Of a stretch of 64,000 nucleotides of DNA, positions 1 to 6,004 are shown one piece after another; position 1 is the stretch's first letter, and each line of letters starts with the position of its first letter. The position numbers were made by a program, and so were the translations under genes. The notes below the pieces were generated by a model that was not told where the DNA came from, ran no database searches, and worked only from the letters and a program-made list of their open reading frames with translations. Source of the DNA: Ignavibacteria bacterium. GTDB lineage: Bacteria; Bacteroidota; Ignavibacteria; Ignavibacteriales; Ignavibacteriaceae. Where the stretch lies: NCBI GenBank assembly GCA_030684555.1, contig JAUXVN010000017.1, positions 1 through 64,000 of the forward strand, written 5' to 3'.

Positions 1-124
1 AGATTGCCGGAAAATAATGAAAACAAGTATAAGAACTATAGCCCGAATAATTTTTTCAAGGTCGAGCCACTTTTTGCTAATTTTCCTCGCTACATCTGCT
101 TCTATATCGGATTTGAGGTCTTGA
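1..124. other. Left-edge segment, coding status undecided
   Basis: Two plus-strand frames are open from the window edge. One closes with TGA at 122-124. The other closes with TGA at 151-153, overlapping the ATG of the next gene in an ATGA arrangement typical of coupled genes. Either could be the 3' end of a gene entering from the left. Neither translated tail shows a motif I recognise, so no product is named. Confidence 0.2.
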
Positions 125-149
125 TGAAAGTATATTGGGGAGGATGCTT

Positions 150-1307
150 ATGAAATTATTCTTTCTTATATTTTTCATTTTTTCCATTCTTTTTATTTCA
201 TGCAAAGACGAGCAGCCTAATACACCTATTGAAACAGCTAAACAAGGCAATTATTACATCCAAAGCGACCCTGATAGCGCCGAAATATGGGTGAATGAGG
301 TTTATAGTGGTAAAGTTACCCCAGATGTGATATCCGCCTCTGAGGGTCTTAACAAGATAAAATTAACACGTACTGATTATCATGATACAACCTTTGCTGT
401 AATATTTGAAGATGAAAAATATATAATTCATCCAATATTAAATCTTAAAAAAAATTACAGAACTGGCTCAATCTTTTTTTCTTCAGATCCTTCCGGTGCA
501 CAAATATGGGTTGATGGCATAAATAGTTATAAAATTACTCCAGACTCAGTTGTTCGGGAAAATGGGACGAAAACAATTTTATTAAAAAAGAATAATTATC
601 ATGATGCATCTTTCACTGTTGACTTTGAAGAAGGTCAAACCAAAATTCATCCTCTTATAGTAATGACAGAGACCTCAATGATTAGACCAACAGATTTCGG
701 AGGAGCAACTCCAACTAATGTACTAGCTGTGGTTAGAACTTCAACCTCATATGGCGGAGTTACAATTGATGTTGGAACAGCAGTAGCAACATTCGGATCA
801 CCACCACAAGATAAAGGTGTTGTAAAAGTTAATTCCAAAGGAACCGATTATACTTTAACAAAACAGTCAAATAATGCTTATATATTTACCCCGGACGCAT
901 TAAGTCCACAAGGAATAGGTTTTAACAGCGGCTCAAGTGAAGTAACATTTTCAGCAGCAAATTATTCTTTAACAAATAATAAAGTATTTGTTCCGGGGAA
1001 AGTAACCTTAACAGCCCCGGTTATGGATGCGTCTATACCACGCGCTTCAAACTTAACTATCAGTTGGGCAGTTTCAGGAGCCGGTTCAAACAATGCTGTA
1101 GTGGTAATTGATAAAAACGGCAAATCAATATTTAAGCAAAATTTGGGGACAGTTACTTCAGCATCGATAACTTCTTCTGAATTACAAACACTTTCTGTAG
1201 GGACAGCTATTGTTTATGCAATTAGTTACAATTATATTTTGAGCAACAGTAATGAAGCGGTTTTAATAGGTGAGACAGTCGCCTTCAATACTGTTAATTT
1301 ACAATAA
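150..1307 (+). CDS. PEGA-domain lipoprotein with a duplicated C-terminal module
   Basis: A 385-residue predicted lipoprotein. The signal peptide is very hydrophobic and ends in a lipobox (FISC, Cys18), so the protein is probably envelope-anchored. Two PEGA-like surface repeats follow (about residues 33-95 and 105-165), each with an SDPxxAxIWV core; PEGA domains are short beta modules of cell-surface proteins. Residues 182-385 match the C-terminal part of the lipoprotein at 3433-4173 at about 84% identity without gaps. I chose ATG 150 because GGGGAGG at 137-143 sits six bases upstream; an in-frame TTG at 135 lies too close to that site. The stop is followed in frame by 42 more sense codons, so the gene looks like a chimera whose older C-terminus was displaced. 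Function unknown. Confidence 0.8.
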   Translation: MKLFFLIFFIFSILFISCKDEQPNTPIETAKQGNYYIQSDPDSAEIWVNEVYSGKVTPDVISASEGLNKIKLTRTDYHDTTFAVIFEDEKYIIHPILNLKKNYRTGSIFFSSDPSGAQIWVDGINSYKITPDSVVRENGTKTILLKKNNYHDASFTVDFEEGQTKIHPLIVMTETSMIRPTDFGGATPTNVLAVVRTSTSYGGVTIDVGTAVATFGSPPQDKGVVKVNSKGTDYTLTKQSNNAYIFTPDALSPQGIGFNSGSSEVTFSAANYSLTNNKVFVPGKVTLTAPVMDASIPRASNLTISWAVSGAGSNNAVVVIDKNGKSIFKQNLGTVTSASITSSELQTLSVGTAIVYAISYNYILSNSNEAVLIGETVAFNTVNLQ

Positions 1308-1308
1308 T
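693..1308 (+). repeat. Duplicated 616-bp coding module, copy 1
   Basis: This segment aligns base for base, without gaps, with 3559-4174. The two encode 204-residue modules that differ at about 32 positions by eye. The last 59 bases (1250-1308) are identical to 4116-4174, and another identical stretch of 28 bases starts at 1036 (matching 3902). Similarity ends one base past the stop codon. The pattern fits a segmental duplication or gene conversion. Confidence 0.85.
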
Positions 1309-1436
1309 ATTGGGTCTTTGATGCTGATAATCATTACTCAAAAATTAAAATTGTAAACTTTGGTTCAACATCAAACTTAGCTTGGGTTGAAATTCAATGG
1401 TTATATAACCCTACAGTAGGAGACAGAAGATTCTAA
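1308..1436 (+). pseudogene. In-frame remnant of a displaced lipoprotein C-terminus
   Basis: Directly after the TAA of the upstream lipoprotein, the same frame stays open for 42 codons and ends at TAA 1434-1436. The translation is protein-like: it contains YWVFDADNHYSKIKIV, ends near VGDRRF, and alternates hydrophobic and polar residues as beta strands do. There is no start codon or ribosome binding site of its own. It resembles, weakly, the terminal strands of HmuY-like lipoproteins; this family match is a guess. It is best read as the old C-terminus left behind when the duplicated module with its own stop was copied in. Confidence 0.55.
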
Positions 1437-1457
1437 TTTTCGTTCCTTAAGTTTTCA

Positions 1458-1488
1458 AGCCGTACTTTTAGTACGGCTTTTTTATTTT
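1458..1488 (+). terminator. Rho-independent terminator
   Basis: An 8-bp perfect stem (AGCCGTAC / GTACGGCT) with a five-base loop is followed by a T-rich tract. It lies 22 bases after the end of the in-frame remnant, which fits the remnant having once been the real 3' end of the gene. Confidence 0.85.
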
Positions 1489-1573
1489 AAATAAAACAAT
1501 CCTTTTATGATAACTTCTAACTCATTATTTTCAACACTTAATTATCCTACATTTAAACAAAGAAGAATTTTTT

Positions 1574-1822
1574 ATGAAAATCGGAATTGAAATAAGCATG
1601 TATCCGCTTAAAGAAGAATACGAAAAACCTATACTCGAATTTATTTCGGAGTTAAAGAAAAATACGAATTTGGAAATAATCACTAATAAACTGAGCACAC
1701 AGATATTCGGTGAGTTTGAAGAAGTTACAGAATTAGTAAAACAAAACATCTTTAAAACTTTCGAAAAACAGAAAACCGTTTTTGTTATGAAGTGGGTCGG
1801 CGGACCTACCGATTTTTTATAA
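1574..1822 (+). CDS. Thiamine-binding (MTH1187/YkoF-like) family protein
   Basis: An 82-residue cytoplasmic protein that looks like the small ferredoxin-fold family known as MTH1187/DUF77 or thiamine-binding protein. The recognisable parts are the N-terminal IEISMYPL strand, a PILEFISEL helix and the IFGEFEEV segment, with a Lys- and Trp-containing C-terminal strand. Members bind thiamine or related small ligands and form oligomers; no enzyme activity is established. It sits 61 bases before a POT-type transporter in the same orientation, so the two may be co-transcribed. A purine-rich stretch (AAAGAAGAA) precedes the ATG. Length is normal for the family. Confidence 0.75.
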   Translation: MKIGIEISMYPLKEEYEKPILEFISELKKNTNLEIITNKLSTQIFGEFEEVTELVKQNIFKTFEKQKTVFVMKWVGGPTDFL

Positions 1823-1883: not shown

Positions 1884-3173
1884 ATGCAAAAAAGAACTCC
1901 GTTCCCTTTTGTGTTTTGGATAGCTAATACTGTTGAGATAGTTGAGCGTTTTTCCTATTACGGTATTTATATGGGTTTCGGGATTTACATGGAATATCTT
2001 GGATATTCAAAATCTCAGCTTGGTATTGTTCAAAGTATTTTCCTGTTGTTTTCTTACGTGGTTCCAGTAATTTCGGGAACGTTCGCAGATAGGTATGGGT
2101 TTAAAAAAGTTTTACTTATTTCTTATCTCGCCTATTTACCATCAATCTTATTATTAATATTTACAAAATCCTTTTCGGGGATAGCGCTTACAATGTTAAG
2201 CATTGGTTTAGCTGCAGGGATATTCAAACCATTGATTTCGGGAACTGTTCGTGCAACAACTGATAAAACCAATAAAACTCTTGGCTTCGGAATATTTTAT
2301 GCAATGGTAAATGTTGGCGCGTCATTCGGTCCAATAGTCGCCGGAAAACTTCGTGCAATATCATGGGATTATGCATTCATTGTTTCAGCAATCGGAATCG
2401 GAATAATGTTTCTTATTACACTCTTTTTCTATAAAGAACCTCCTCGTGAAACCGAAGGAACAACTCTGGGACAAAAGTTTAAAGATATGAAAGTTGCTCT
2501 TTCTGATTTTAAATTTGCATCTTTTCTATTTATCCTTGGTGTTTTTTATTGGCTGCCGTTCTGGGCATTCTTTAATCTTCTTGCAATTTATATTGATAAG
2601 AACCTTGATACTGCAGCATTATATGTGACCATCTCCGGAATTTTCGGAACCGGTTTTACATCAATATTTTCAGCCACAGATGAAAAAGGCGTCACGCGAA
2701 TATTAGGAGAAACTGTTTCACATACCGGATATATAATTATGATATTCCAAATATTCGTTTCACGCATTTCAGAAAAGTTTAAAGCAATTCCGACATTCAA
2801 CTTCGGATTGTTTGTAGCAGCTATCGGTATGATATTGCTTGGTTACGCAAGAGTTTCTTTCTCAGAACTGGCATTTCTGGGAATATTATTTTTTGCAGTT
2901 GGCGAGATGATAACATCACCGAGAATTCAAGAATACATTACATGGATTGCCCCAAAAGAAAAAGCCGGATTATATATGGGAACTAACTTTCTTGCTGTTG
3001 GATTAGGCGGTGCATTAAGTGGTGTTACATATACTTCTGTTTATGGTTACTTCAGAGATATGGGAAATCCGGAATATGTTTGGTATGTATTGGCTGCAAA
3101 TCTTTTTCTTGCGATAATTGCAATTTATACATTTATTAAAATCGCGGGTGAGTTTAAAGAACTTGATGAATAA
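1884..3173 (+). CDS. POT/PTR2-family proton-coupled transporter (MFS)
   Basis: A 429-residue polytopic membrane protein of the major facilitator fold. The first helix carries EIVERFSYYG, which matches the ExxERFxYYG signature of proton-dependent oligopeptide transporters (POT/PTR2). The loop after helix 2 has DRYGFKK, the usual MFS loop motif. Many hydrophobic segments follow to the C-terminus. It is somewhat shorter than typical bacterial POTs (about 450-500 residues). The substrate is probably a di- or tripeptide, or a related small molecule, but this cannot be read from sequence. AGAAGGTG at about 1870 is a good ribosome binding site. The upstream neighbour is a thiamine-binding-family gene. 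Confidence 0.8.
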   Translation: MQKRTPFPFVFWIANTVEIVERFSYYGIYMGFGIYMEYLGYSKSQLGIVQSIFLLFSYVVPVISGTFADRYGFKKVLLISYLAYLPSILLLIFTKSFSGIALTMLSIGLAAGIFKPLISGTVRATTDKTNKTLGFGIFYAMVNVGASFGPIVAGKLRAISWDYAFIVSAIGIGIMFLITLFFYKEPPRETEGTTLGQKFKDMKVALSDFKFASFLFILGVFYWLPFWAFFNLLAIYIDKNLDTAALYVTISGIFGTGFTSIFSATDEKGVTRILGETVSHTGYIIMIFQIFVSRISEKFKAIPTFNFGLFVAAIGMILLGYARVSFSELAFLGILFFAVGEMITSPRIQEYITWIAPKEKAGLYMGTNFLAVGLGGALSGVTYTSVYGYFRDMGNPEYVWYVLAANLFLAIIAIYTFIKIAGEFKELDE

Positions 3174-3358
3174 CGGATGAAGTCTAATTTTGTCAGCACG
3201 TGATTATCTAGAATAAATTGCACGGGATTGTATAACTGTTGTTCTTTTGCGACACTATATTTTTTTTATTAGTAGCCATAAAACGACTTAGATTAAATAT
3301 TTTCCCTGATATAGATATTATTACTTTTGGCACTATTATTGGGTTAAGATATGGAAAT

Positions 3359-3400
3359 ATAATCTGTTACTATAACGAGGGTTTTTATTAAACAGATTAT
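3359..3400. promoter_or_regulatory. 10-bp inverted repeat upstream of lipoprotein gene
   Basis: Perfect 10-base arms (ATAATCTGTT at 3359-3368 and its complement at 3391-3400) are separated by 22 bases and lie 32 bases before the ATG at 3433. It could be an operator or an RNA hairpin in the leader. No known regulator consensus is recognised, and in AT-rich DNA an arm pair of this length can arise by chance. Confidence 0.3.
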
Positions 3401-3432
3401 TGTAATTCAGTTACTAAATAAAAGAGGATAAA

Positions 3433-4173
3433 ATGAAAAAAACTTTTTTGCTTTTTGCACTAATGATAATGTTTGCAGTAGTTGGCTGCAAAAAGGATGA
3501 ATCCACAACCGATCCGGGAAATACTAATCAAAATTCATCAACAACACCCACTCCGACTGATTTTGGTGGAGCAACTCCAACTAATGTATTAGCAGTAGTT
3601 AGAACTTCAACCACATATGTCGGTGTTACAGTTGAACTTGGATTAGCAGCAGCAACATTCGGAAATCCACCGCAAGATAAAGGTGTTGTAAAAGTTACAT
3701 CCAAAGGAACAGATTACACTTTAACAAAACAGTCAAATAATTCTTATGTATTTAATCCGGAAGCATTAAGTCCTCAAGGAATCGGGTTTAACAGTGGTTC
3801 AACAGAAGTAACATTTTCAGCAGCAAACTATTCTTTAATTAATACTAAAGTATTTGTGCCTGGAAAAATTACCGTCACCGCACCGGCAGCGGAAACATCT
3901 GTACCACGCGCTTCAAACTTAACTATCAGCTGGACAGTTTCAGGCGCCGGTTCAAATAATGCCGTAATGGTAATTGATAAAGACGGCAAATCAATATTTA
4001 AACAAAATTTGGGAACTGCAACTTCAGCATCTGTAACTTCTGCTGAATTACAAACACTTTCTTCAGGTTCTGCTATTGTTTATGCGATAAGTTACAATTA
4101 TATTTTAAGCAACAATAATGAAGCGGTTTTAATAGGTGAGACAGTCGCCTTCAATACTGTTAATTTACAATAA
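3433..4173 (+). CDS. Lipoprotein with the duplicated C-terminal module
   Basis: A 246-residue predicted lipoprotein. The signal peptide ends in VVGC, followed by KKDE and a Ser/Thr/Pro/Asn-rich linker of about 20 residues. From residue 43 on it is the same 204-residue module as in the lipoprotein at 150-1307, rich in short beta strands and with no cysteine. The module has a PRASNLTISW segment resembling an Ig-like or fibronectin-type strand, so it may be a beta-sandwich, but I do not recognise a named family. AGAGG sits 5-9 bases upstream of the ATG. The next gene, encoding an outer-membrane barrel, starts only 29 bases downstream, suggesting a shared transcript and surface role. Confidence 0.8.
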   Translation: MKKTFLLFALMIMFAVVGCKKDESTTDPGNTNQNSSTTPTPTDFGGATPTNVLAVVRTSTTYVGVTVELGLAAATFGNPPQDKGVVKVTSKGTDYTLTKQSNNSYVFNPEALSPQGIGFNSGSTEVTFSAANYSLINTKVFVPGKITVTAPAAETSVPRASNLTISWTVSGAGSNNAVMVIDKDGKSIFKQNLGTATSASVTSAELQTLSSGSAIVYAISYNYILSNNNEAVLIGETVAFNTVNLQ

Positions 4174-4174
4174 T
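3559..4174 (+). repeat. Duplicated 616-bp coding module, copy 2
   Basis: The counterpart of 693-1308: same length, no gaps, identical over the final 59 bases. This copy sits in a simple lipoprotein with nothing readable after its stop, so it is the more likely donor. Confidence 0.85.
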
Positions 4175-5699: not shown

Positions 5700-5824
5700 G
5701 ATTCCTCCTAATTAATTTTTTGTTCATTTCATAAGACGAGGTGAGGTTATAAAGGTTTTATTGAATAAGCGAAATCGTGATGAACGGAAAATGAAAATGA
5801 CAATTGGAGTTTTAAAGATTGCGG

Positions 5825-5984
5825 TTTGGTAAGAATAGTAATACCGAACAAGAGATGCTGAAACGAGTTCAGCATGACAGTGATTTGGGGTTTGGTAAAA
5901 ATAATGATGCTGCACAAATGATGCTGAAACGATTCGCCAGTGGCGAACAGCATGACAGTTTTTCTTAATTTGGTAAGAATATAA
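5825..5984. repeat. Tandem intergenic palindromic repeat units
   Basis: This block fills most of the 323-base gap between the coiled-coil gene and tpiA. The phrase TTTGGTAA(G/A)AATA starts units at 5825, 5891 and 5969. The first two units each contain ATGCTGAAACGA...CAGCATGACAG (5854-5880 and 5921-5958); the second also carries the palindrome TTCGCCAGTGGCGAA. The same core, in either orientation, occurs at 19391-19531, 19929-20088 and, diverged, at 29420-29510. Short reading frames over it translate to the familiar spurious CHAELVSAS-type peptide and are not genes. The rest of the gap shows nothing else. Confidence 0.8.
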
Positions 5985-6004
5985 ATGCCGGGCAAACCCG
6001 GCAT
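5985..6004 (-). terminator. Hairpin downstream of tpiA
   Basis: An 8-bp GC-rich stem (ATGCCGGG / CCCGGCAT) with a CAAA loop begins 18 bases past the tpiA stop. The tract beyond it on the minus strand is only moderately T-rich, so termination may be partial. Confidence 0.6.

Follow-up and report, generated by a model that had tools for sequence, protein, structure and literature searches.

A chimeric PEGA lipoprotein gene followed by the in-frame remnant of a predicted HmuY-fold domain in an Ignavibacteria bacterium

Chimeric surface-protein genes formed between paralogues are already known. In Treponema, tprGJ and tprGI are chimeric genes made from parts of paralogous surface-protein genes, and some are truncated (PMC3656149). 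The lipoprotein gene described here, gene C, resembles the tpr chimeras in being assembled from surface-protein gene parts (PMC3656149). However, the tpr chimeras involve close paralogues and many strains of a pathogen (PMC3656149), whereas C comes from one environmental genome, its head donor and recipient belong to different families, and the displaced tail has been retained. Domain rearrangement and allelic exchange are also reported for surface proteins of Porphyromonas gingivalis (PMC5266723). As in C, surface proteins of a related phylum are there diversified through domain exchange and recombination (PMC5266723). The P. gingivalis exchange takes place at population level, between strains (PMC5266723), whereas C concerns two loci of one genome.

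The HmuY-family haem-binding lipoproteins (HmuY, BfrB, Tfo and PinO) share with the recipient of C the lipoprotein anchoring and, by structure prediction, the fold of the lost domain. In the recipient, however, this fold is placed after a PEGA domain, sequence identity to the family is 13-18%, and there is no Pfam HmuY match. The PEGA-domain lipoproteins (PF08308) resemble C in their N-terminal half, which is a lipobox followed by one or more PEGA domains, but in C the C-terminal partner has changed from a HmuY fold to an Ig-like module. The head domains exchanged on the shared lipoprotein stalk of C are unrelated to each other, and we regard C as an unusually complete example. Head swaps in lipoproteins are usually deduced from mosaics with faded joins. 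Here, the donor, the unrearranged paralogues, a sister-species locus and the discarded tail can all be examined, which locates the join to within a few bases and gives it an approximate date. C shows a domain replaced from its boundary inward by a module that brought the donor's own stop codon, and in-frame tails past stop codons are recognisable scars of such swaps which can be searched for systematically.

Gene C and the module it shares with gene D

The window analyzed covers bases 1 to 64,000 of a 77,632-bp contig (C109) in a draft genome of 4.34 Mb and 152 contigs. It contains the chimeric gene C (150-1307) and the donor gene D (3433-4173). Two intact paralogues of the recipient, B (C130:1404-2159, minus strand) and A (C130:264-1232, minus strand), are found on a second contig of the same genome. 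The closest genome among those compared is G001, a sister species of the same genus, which carries the corresponding genes B1 (C126:12577-13341, minus strand) and D1 (C35:203-943). The features of C are as follows:

138..142, + strand: putative ribosome-binding site of C, GGAGG, proposed from sequence
150..1307, + strand: chimeric lipoprotein gene C, 385 aa, with lipobox signal peptide, PEGA1, PEGA2, a two-domain Ig-like module and TAA
150..203, + strand: signal peptide and lipobox cysteine (MKLFFLIFFIFSILFISC), by inspection
240..446, + strand: PEGA domain 1 (PF08308, two stretches, E 3.2e-13 for the protein; match to B)
462..668, + strand: PEGA domain 2 (best PF08308 stretch, residues 106-164)
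687..1308, + strand: module copied from D with its stop codon and one base beyond (87% identity, no gaps)

The best start placement for C is the ATG at 150, with GGAGG at 138-142. PF08308 scores 49.8 bits in two stretches against a gathering cut-off of 20.8, which places C among the PEGA-domain proteins. The first-pass annotation had described the end of C as a gap-free copy of the module in the lipoprotein at 3433-4173, with similarity ending one base after the stop codon. Both descriptions are accurate: positions 687-1308 and 3553-4174 are identical at 541 of 622 sites (87%, 0 gaps, BLASTN E 0.0), the last identical base is 1308 and the first mismatch is 1309. At protein level, the two modules are 84% identical over 205 codons. 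The final identical run between C and D covers 59 nt (1250-1308).

A structural model of the chimera, based on six alignment rows, had pLDDT below 50 over the PEGA part and served solely for noting that the module is predicted to consist of two Ig/FNIII-like domains. The C-branch dN/dS of about 0.2, estimated from pairwise values, indicates purifying selection on the module in C, which is therefore probably part of a working gene.

The closest relatives of C within its own genome differ by segment: the module is closest to D (87% nucleotide identity), while the tail and 3' flank are closest to B (89%). Such a composite could arise if a short-read assembler had joined D-like and B-like sequences, as the draft comprises 152 contigs, the window lies at a contig edge, repeats are found nearby, and C and D share the identical 59 nt. 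However, C and D differ at 81 of the 622 module sites and 13-16 sites separate the tail from B and A; each half of C thus has differences of its own, and neither is a misplaced stretch of D or of A/B. In addition, the order of D and the genes downstream of it is conserved in G001, and an insertion sequence (IS) accounts for the contig breaks. The final k-mers usually used in assembly are longer than 59 nt, i.e., longer than both this repeat and the 6-nt match at the right junction described below. Misassembly of C is unlikely on these sequence comparisons, and we give an artefact of this kind only a very slight chance.

The tail behind the stop codon and the domain it derives from

The following features lie behind the stop codon of C:

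1308..1433, + strand: in-frame 42-codon remnant corresponding to the last 42 residues of the PEGA/HmuY-fold lipoprotein (B residues 210-251)
1434..1517, + strand: old stop and 3' flank in common with B, the last 60 nt identical
1457..1479, + strand: intrinsic terminator from the recipient gene (same hairpin after B, base-changed version in G001)

As the first-pass annotation had noticed, the frame remains open through 42 sense codons after the stop of C (1308-1433), ends at a TAA (1434-1436) and is followed by a strong terminator (1457-1479), which has a 10-bp stem and an RNA fold z-score of -4.6 relative to shuffled sequences. Its reading of these codons as a displaced C-terminus also agrees with our results, as the intact genes A and B end in the same 42 residues (88%). 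A search of the remnant against its own genome returned exactly two other matches (E 3.5e-23 and 8.4e-23, 88% identity each), and both are the extreme C-termini of the intact lipoproteins A (322 aa) and B (251 aa). At these E values, chance is excluded. The DNA match between the remnant and B continues past the old stop and the terminator, to about 1517. The same C-terminal signature, roughly YDxDxHYSKxKI ... AWVxVxWxYNxTxxDxRF, is also present at the end of some 28 other PEGA lipoproteins of this family and order. The remnant contains no in-frame ATG, GTG or TTG and so is not a separate ORF with one of the common start codons; it is presumably untranslated. Pfam and NCBIfam gave no match with the 42-residue remnant, but the paralogue search and the fold comparison did identify it.

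The recipient proteins A, B and B1 have one or two PEGA domains (PF08308) followed by a region to which neither Pfam nor NCBIfam gives a name. No HmuY profile match was found for A, B and B1 in Pfam (E<=1) or for A and B in NCBIfam, and no convincing match came from a profile search of solved structures with the PEGA-HmuY alignment. The model predicted for B has a mean pLDDT of 90. When residues 104-251 of this model were compared with the HmuY family (VIA-align Z), scores were 12.1 for BfrB, 11.9 for PinO, 10.6-10.7 for HmuY and 10.1 for Tfo; a DUF4466 protein scored 13.5. Judged by the predicted structure, the domain lost from the recipient is a HmuY fold. The expectation of the first-pass annotation that the tail would be HmuY-like was therefore right as to fold, but not as to profile, as Pfam and NCBIfam gave no HmuY match. 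Haem binding is a putative function of the PEGA-HmuY lipoproteins.

In the model of B, the remnant (residues 210-251) makes up the last strands of the HmuY fold, which means that the domain itself has been cut. The earlier view that a module ahead of a separate C-terminus had been replaced must be corrected accordingly: what is missing is the first ~107 residues of the predicted HmuY-fold domain itself. The module runs from the PEGA/HmuY boundary into the modelled HmuY fold, i.e., the domain is beheaded.

Locus, junctions and origin of the PEGA half

The surroundings of C and the two junctions contain the following features:

1..118, strand not assigned: terminal ~118 bp of a multi-copy IS1380-family IS; contig and window begin inside it (near-identical copies elsewhere)
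660..674, + strand: 15-nt tract GTAATGACAGAGACC matching B only (not A, not G001), left edge of the recipient
675..686, + strand: 12 nt at the left junction fitting neither recipient nor donor
1301..1306, + strand: ACAATA microhomology, 6 nt, common to donor, recipient and chimera at the right junction
1574..1822, + strand: YkoF-related protein, synteny anchor (PF07615, E 2.4e-5; same slot after the PEGA-HmuY gene of G001)
1884..3173, + strand: MFS-like transporter, synteny anchor (by inspection; 94% identical in G001)
3433..4173, + strand: donor lipoprotein D, 246 aa, signal peptide and two-domain Ig-like module (module 3553-4174; orthologue D1 in G001)

The gene order in G001 is pilin-like genes, a 166-aa lipoprotein, a single PEGA-HmuY gene, the YkoF-related gene and the MFS transporter. 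A comparison with the orthologous locus had been proposed along with the first-pass annotation, and in G001 the slot holds this single intact gene. In the host genome, contig C130 carries pilin-like genes, the same 166-aa lipoprotein as in G001, then B and then A, and ends 263 bp past A. Contig C109 begins 149 bp ahead of C, and the YkoF-related and MFS genes come after C. The unrearranged state thus exists both in the paralogues A and B and in the single-copy orthologue B1.

One copy of the IS lies 31 bp upstream of the start codon of C. The opposite end of the element forms the terminal 188 bp of C130 (C130 1-188), directly after A and in the same orientation as the C109 end. A full copy (C51:28850-30452) is about 1.6 kb long and encodes an IS1380 transposase (NF033539, E 5.1e-87); the 292 bits exceed the cut-off of 180, and the inverted ends are CTCAAATCC...GGATTTGAG, which identifies the element as a member of IS1380. 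It is present in ten to a dozen or so near-identical copies, many of them at contig ends, and it fragments the assembly. No clear target-site duplication for the IS was found between C130 (..CTATTGAT) and C109 (GTCTTGATG..). The simplest map of the host locus would be B - A - IS1380 - C - YkoF - MFS, compared with one gene in G001, where the adjacency of A, the IS and C is deduced across the contig gap.

D is intact and today lies 2.1 kb from C. Both D and D1 adjoin the same outer-membrane-type protein and coiled-coil gene in the host and in G001, so D is the resident donor. No second module copy was found in G001. The window interval 3173-3433 is a synteny break: MFS and D are neighbours here, but lie on different contigs in G001, where other genes come after MFS. 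A rearrangement at this point may have brought donor and recipient near each other.

We consider it quite probable that C arose by in-place replacement of the head in a third array copy by the D module and its stop codon. The ancestral locus would have held one gene for a PEGA and HmuY-fold lipoprotein, still single-copy in G001, and in the host lineage this gene would have grown into an array (B, A and a third copy). Recombination between the third copy and D would have exchanged the stretch from the PEGA/HmuY boundary through residue 209 (B numbering) for the Ig-like module and stop of D. A crossover in ACAATA would have kept the frame while the TAA of D terminated the protein, and the last 42 HmuY codons and the terminator would have become 3' untranslated sequence. 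The product would be a lipoprotein with two PEGA domains and an Ig-like module, i.e., a PEGA stalk with a different head.

The right junction reads TTACAATAATTATC in the donor, TCACAATATTATTGG in the recipient and TTACAATAATATTGG in the chimera, and the crossover would lie within or just past ACAATA. This motif sets the CAA codons in register, which explains why the remnant is in frame: the TAA of D sits exactly at the tyrosine codon TAT of B, after which the old frame resumes. Homology between donor and recipient at the tract edges amounts to ACAATA and weak flanking similarity on the right, and none is traceable on the left. The first-pass annotation was right that a module plus stop codon was copied into a longer gene, but gene conversion as the process is not established given the 6-nt microhomology at the right junction. 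The route may have been homologous gene conversion or illegitimate recombination driven by microhomology.

The main weakness of in-place replacement is the PEGA half. Identity between the PEGA domains of C and those of A, B and B1 is only 38-57%, compared with 87% between the B domain and the second PEGA of A. The 31 bp between the IS and the start codon are unlike the upstream leader of A or B. Either the third array copy is old or fast-evolving, or another PEGA gene may have supplied the 5' part, perhaps along with the IS. This leads to a different origin, in which a pre-formed gene with signal, PEGA1, PEGA2, Ig module and stop, perhaps together with IS1380, was joined to a PEGA-HmuY 3' end and truncated that copy. 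The same remnant would result, but no domain would have been replaced within one gene. Such an import would fit the divergence from A and B, which is much greater in the PEGA region than in the remnant, the unrelated 31-bp leader and the IS1380 element abutting C, as IS1380 members such as ISEcp1 are known to mobilise adjacent DNA. We nevertheless consider it unlikely. The 15 nt just ahead of the left edge of the module are identical to B only, and the final 39 nt of PEGA2 are 85% identical to B compared with 67-72% to the second PEGA of A and to B1. A genus-specific ending, HP[LI], is common to the PEGA domains of C, A, B and B1, and these domains form one group, modestly supported (83/85), in a tree of 39 PEGA rows whose 62 columns are too few to place the PEGA domains of C firmly. 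Additionally, a free PEGA-module gene was absent, as C was the only PEGA-module fusion in the 59 genomes searched, including G001, and inspection of the right junction showed no target-site duplication. We also considered whether C had been carried along by one-ended transposition of the ISEcp1 type; the right junction has no matching duplication.

Timing of the swap and decay of the tail

Module dS is 0.35 between C and D, 1.07 between C and D1 and 1.06 between D and D1, and 61 third-position sites group C with D compared with 18 and 15 for the alternatives. As the distance between C and D is far below those to D1, the copy arose after the split from G001. The distances between A and B and between the remnant and B are similar in size (dS 0.3-0.5).

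Pairwise values give the C branch of the module a dS of about 0.18 and a dN of about 0.034. In contrast, the remnant branch carries six nucleotide changes, affecting two amino-acid codons and three synonymous codons, and no stop. Neutral simulation at 0.18 substitutions/site predicts 12.4 amino-acid changes in the remnant, and none of 4,000 neutral runs gave two or fewer without a stop (P<0.001); the data fit neutral decay only up to about 0.06 substitutions/site. The remnant shows less decay than expected from the age of the module, which makes the timing composite. The claim that domain shuffling had been caught in progress is therefore too strong, with a C-D dS of about 0.35 and a remnant that is little changed. 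Either the stop is younger than the module divergence implies, for example if the module came directly from a relative of D that has since been lost, or the tail of C was later re-homogenised by B. The identical 60-nt non-coding flank favours tail homogenisation by B.

The low decay might also be explained if a module without a stop was once in frame with the HmuY tail and was truncated later, by conversion from D or by a TAT to TAA mutation. This would account for a remnant that is overly conserved for the age of the module, and for a module end with 59 nt identical to D compared with 87% overall, which random placement gives in about 2% of cases. However, the same 3' segment is nearly unchanged between D and G001 (2 differences in the last 60 nt), so constraint explains the identity; a module fused to just the last 42 HmuY residues would be an odd protein, and the B-identical 60-nt flank, suggesting tail homogenisation, accounts equally well for the low decay. 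A late truncation of this kind therefore seems improbable, though not more so than the import of a pre-formed gene.

Continued use of the remnant, through readthrough of the TAA or in another role under selection, could likewise have kept the frame open and conserved, with two amino-acid compared with three synonymous codon changes. We give this very little credence. TAA followed by T, as found here, is an efficient stop in the bacteria studied. Six changes cannot separate constraint from recent origin, as such a count is not unusual under neutrality at t<=0.05, and the adjacent non-coding flank suggests tail homogenisation by B. Equally remote, or nearly so, is the idea that the array is a cassette system in which the IS and mutually homogenising 3' flanks allow PEGA-stalk heads to be exchanged repeatedly, with the tail as homology for a switch back to HmuY.

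The end of the module is conserved in its own right. Positions 1250-1308 and 4116-4174 are identical between C and D and nearly so in G001, despite strong synonymous divergence elsewhere, which suggests constraint on synonymous sites over the last 59 nt of the module. A recent conversion tract was considered for this identical end and dropped, as the stretch is nearly invariant in G001 too.

Two minor observations were made outside gene C. Between two genes of the window, positions 5819-5996 hold short imperfect direct repeats of 48-49 nt, 71-81% identical, with a CAGCATGACAGT motif. In a relative, L087:640-921 (G034:C240) is a C-terminal HmuY-fold fragment without signal peptide or PEGA domain, located beside hydrogenase-maturation-like genes, and it looks like another decayed copy.
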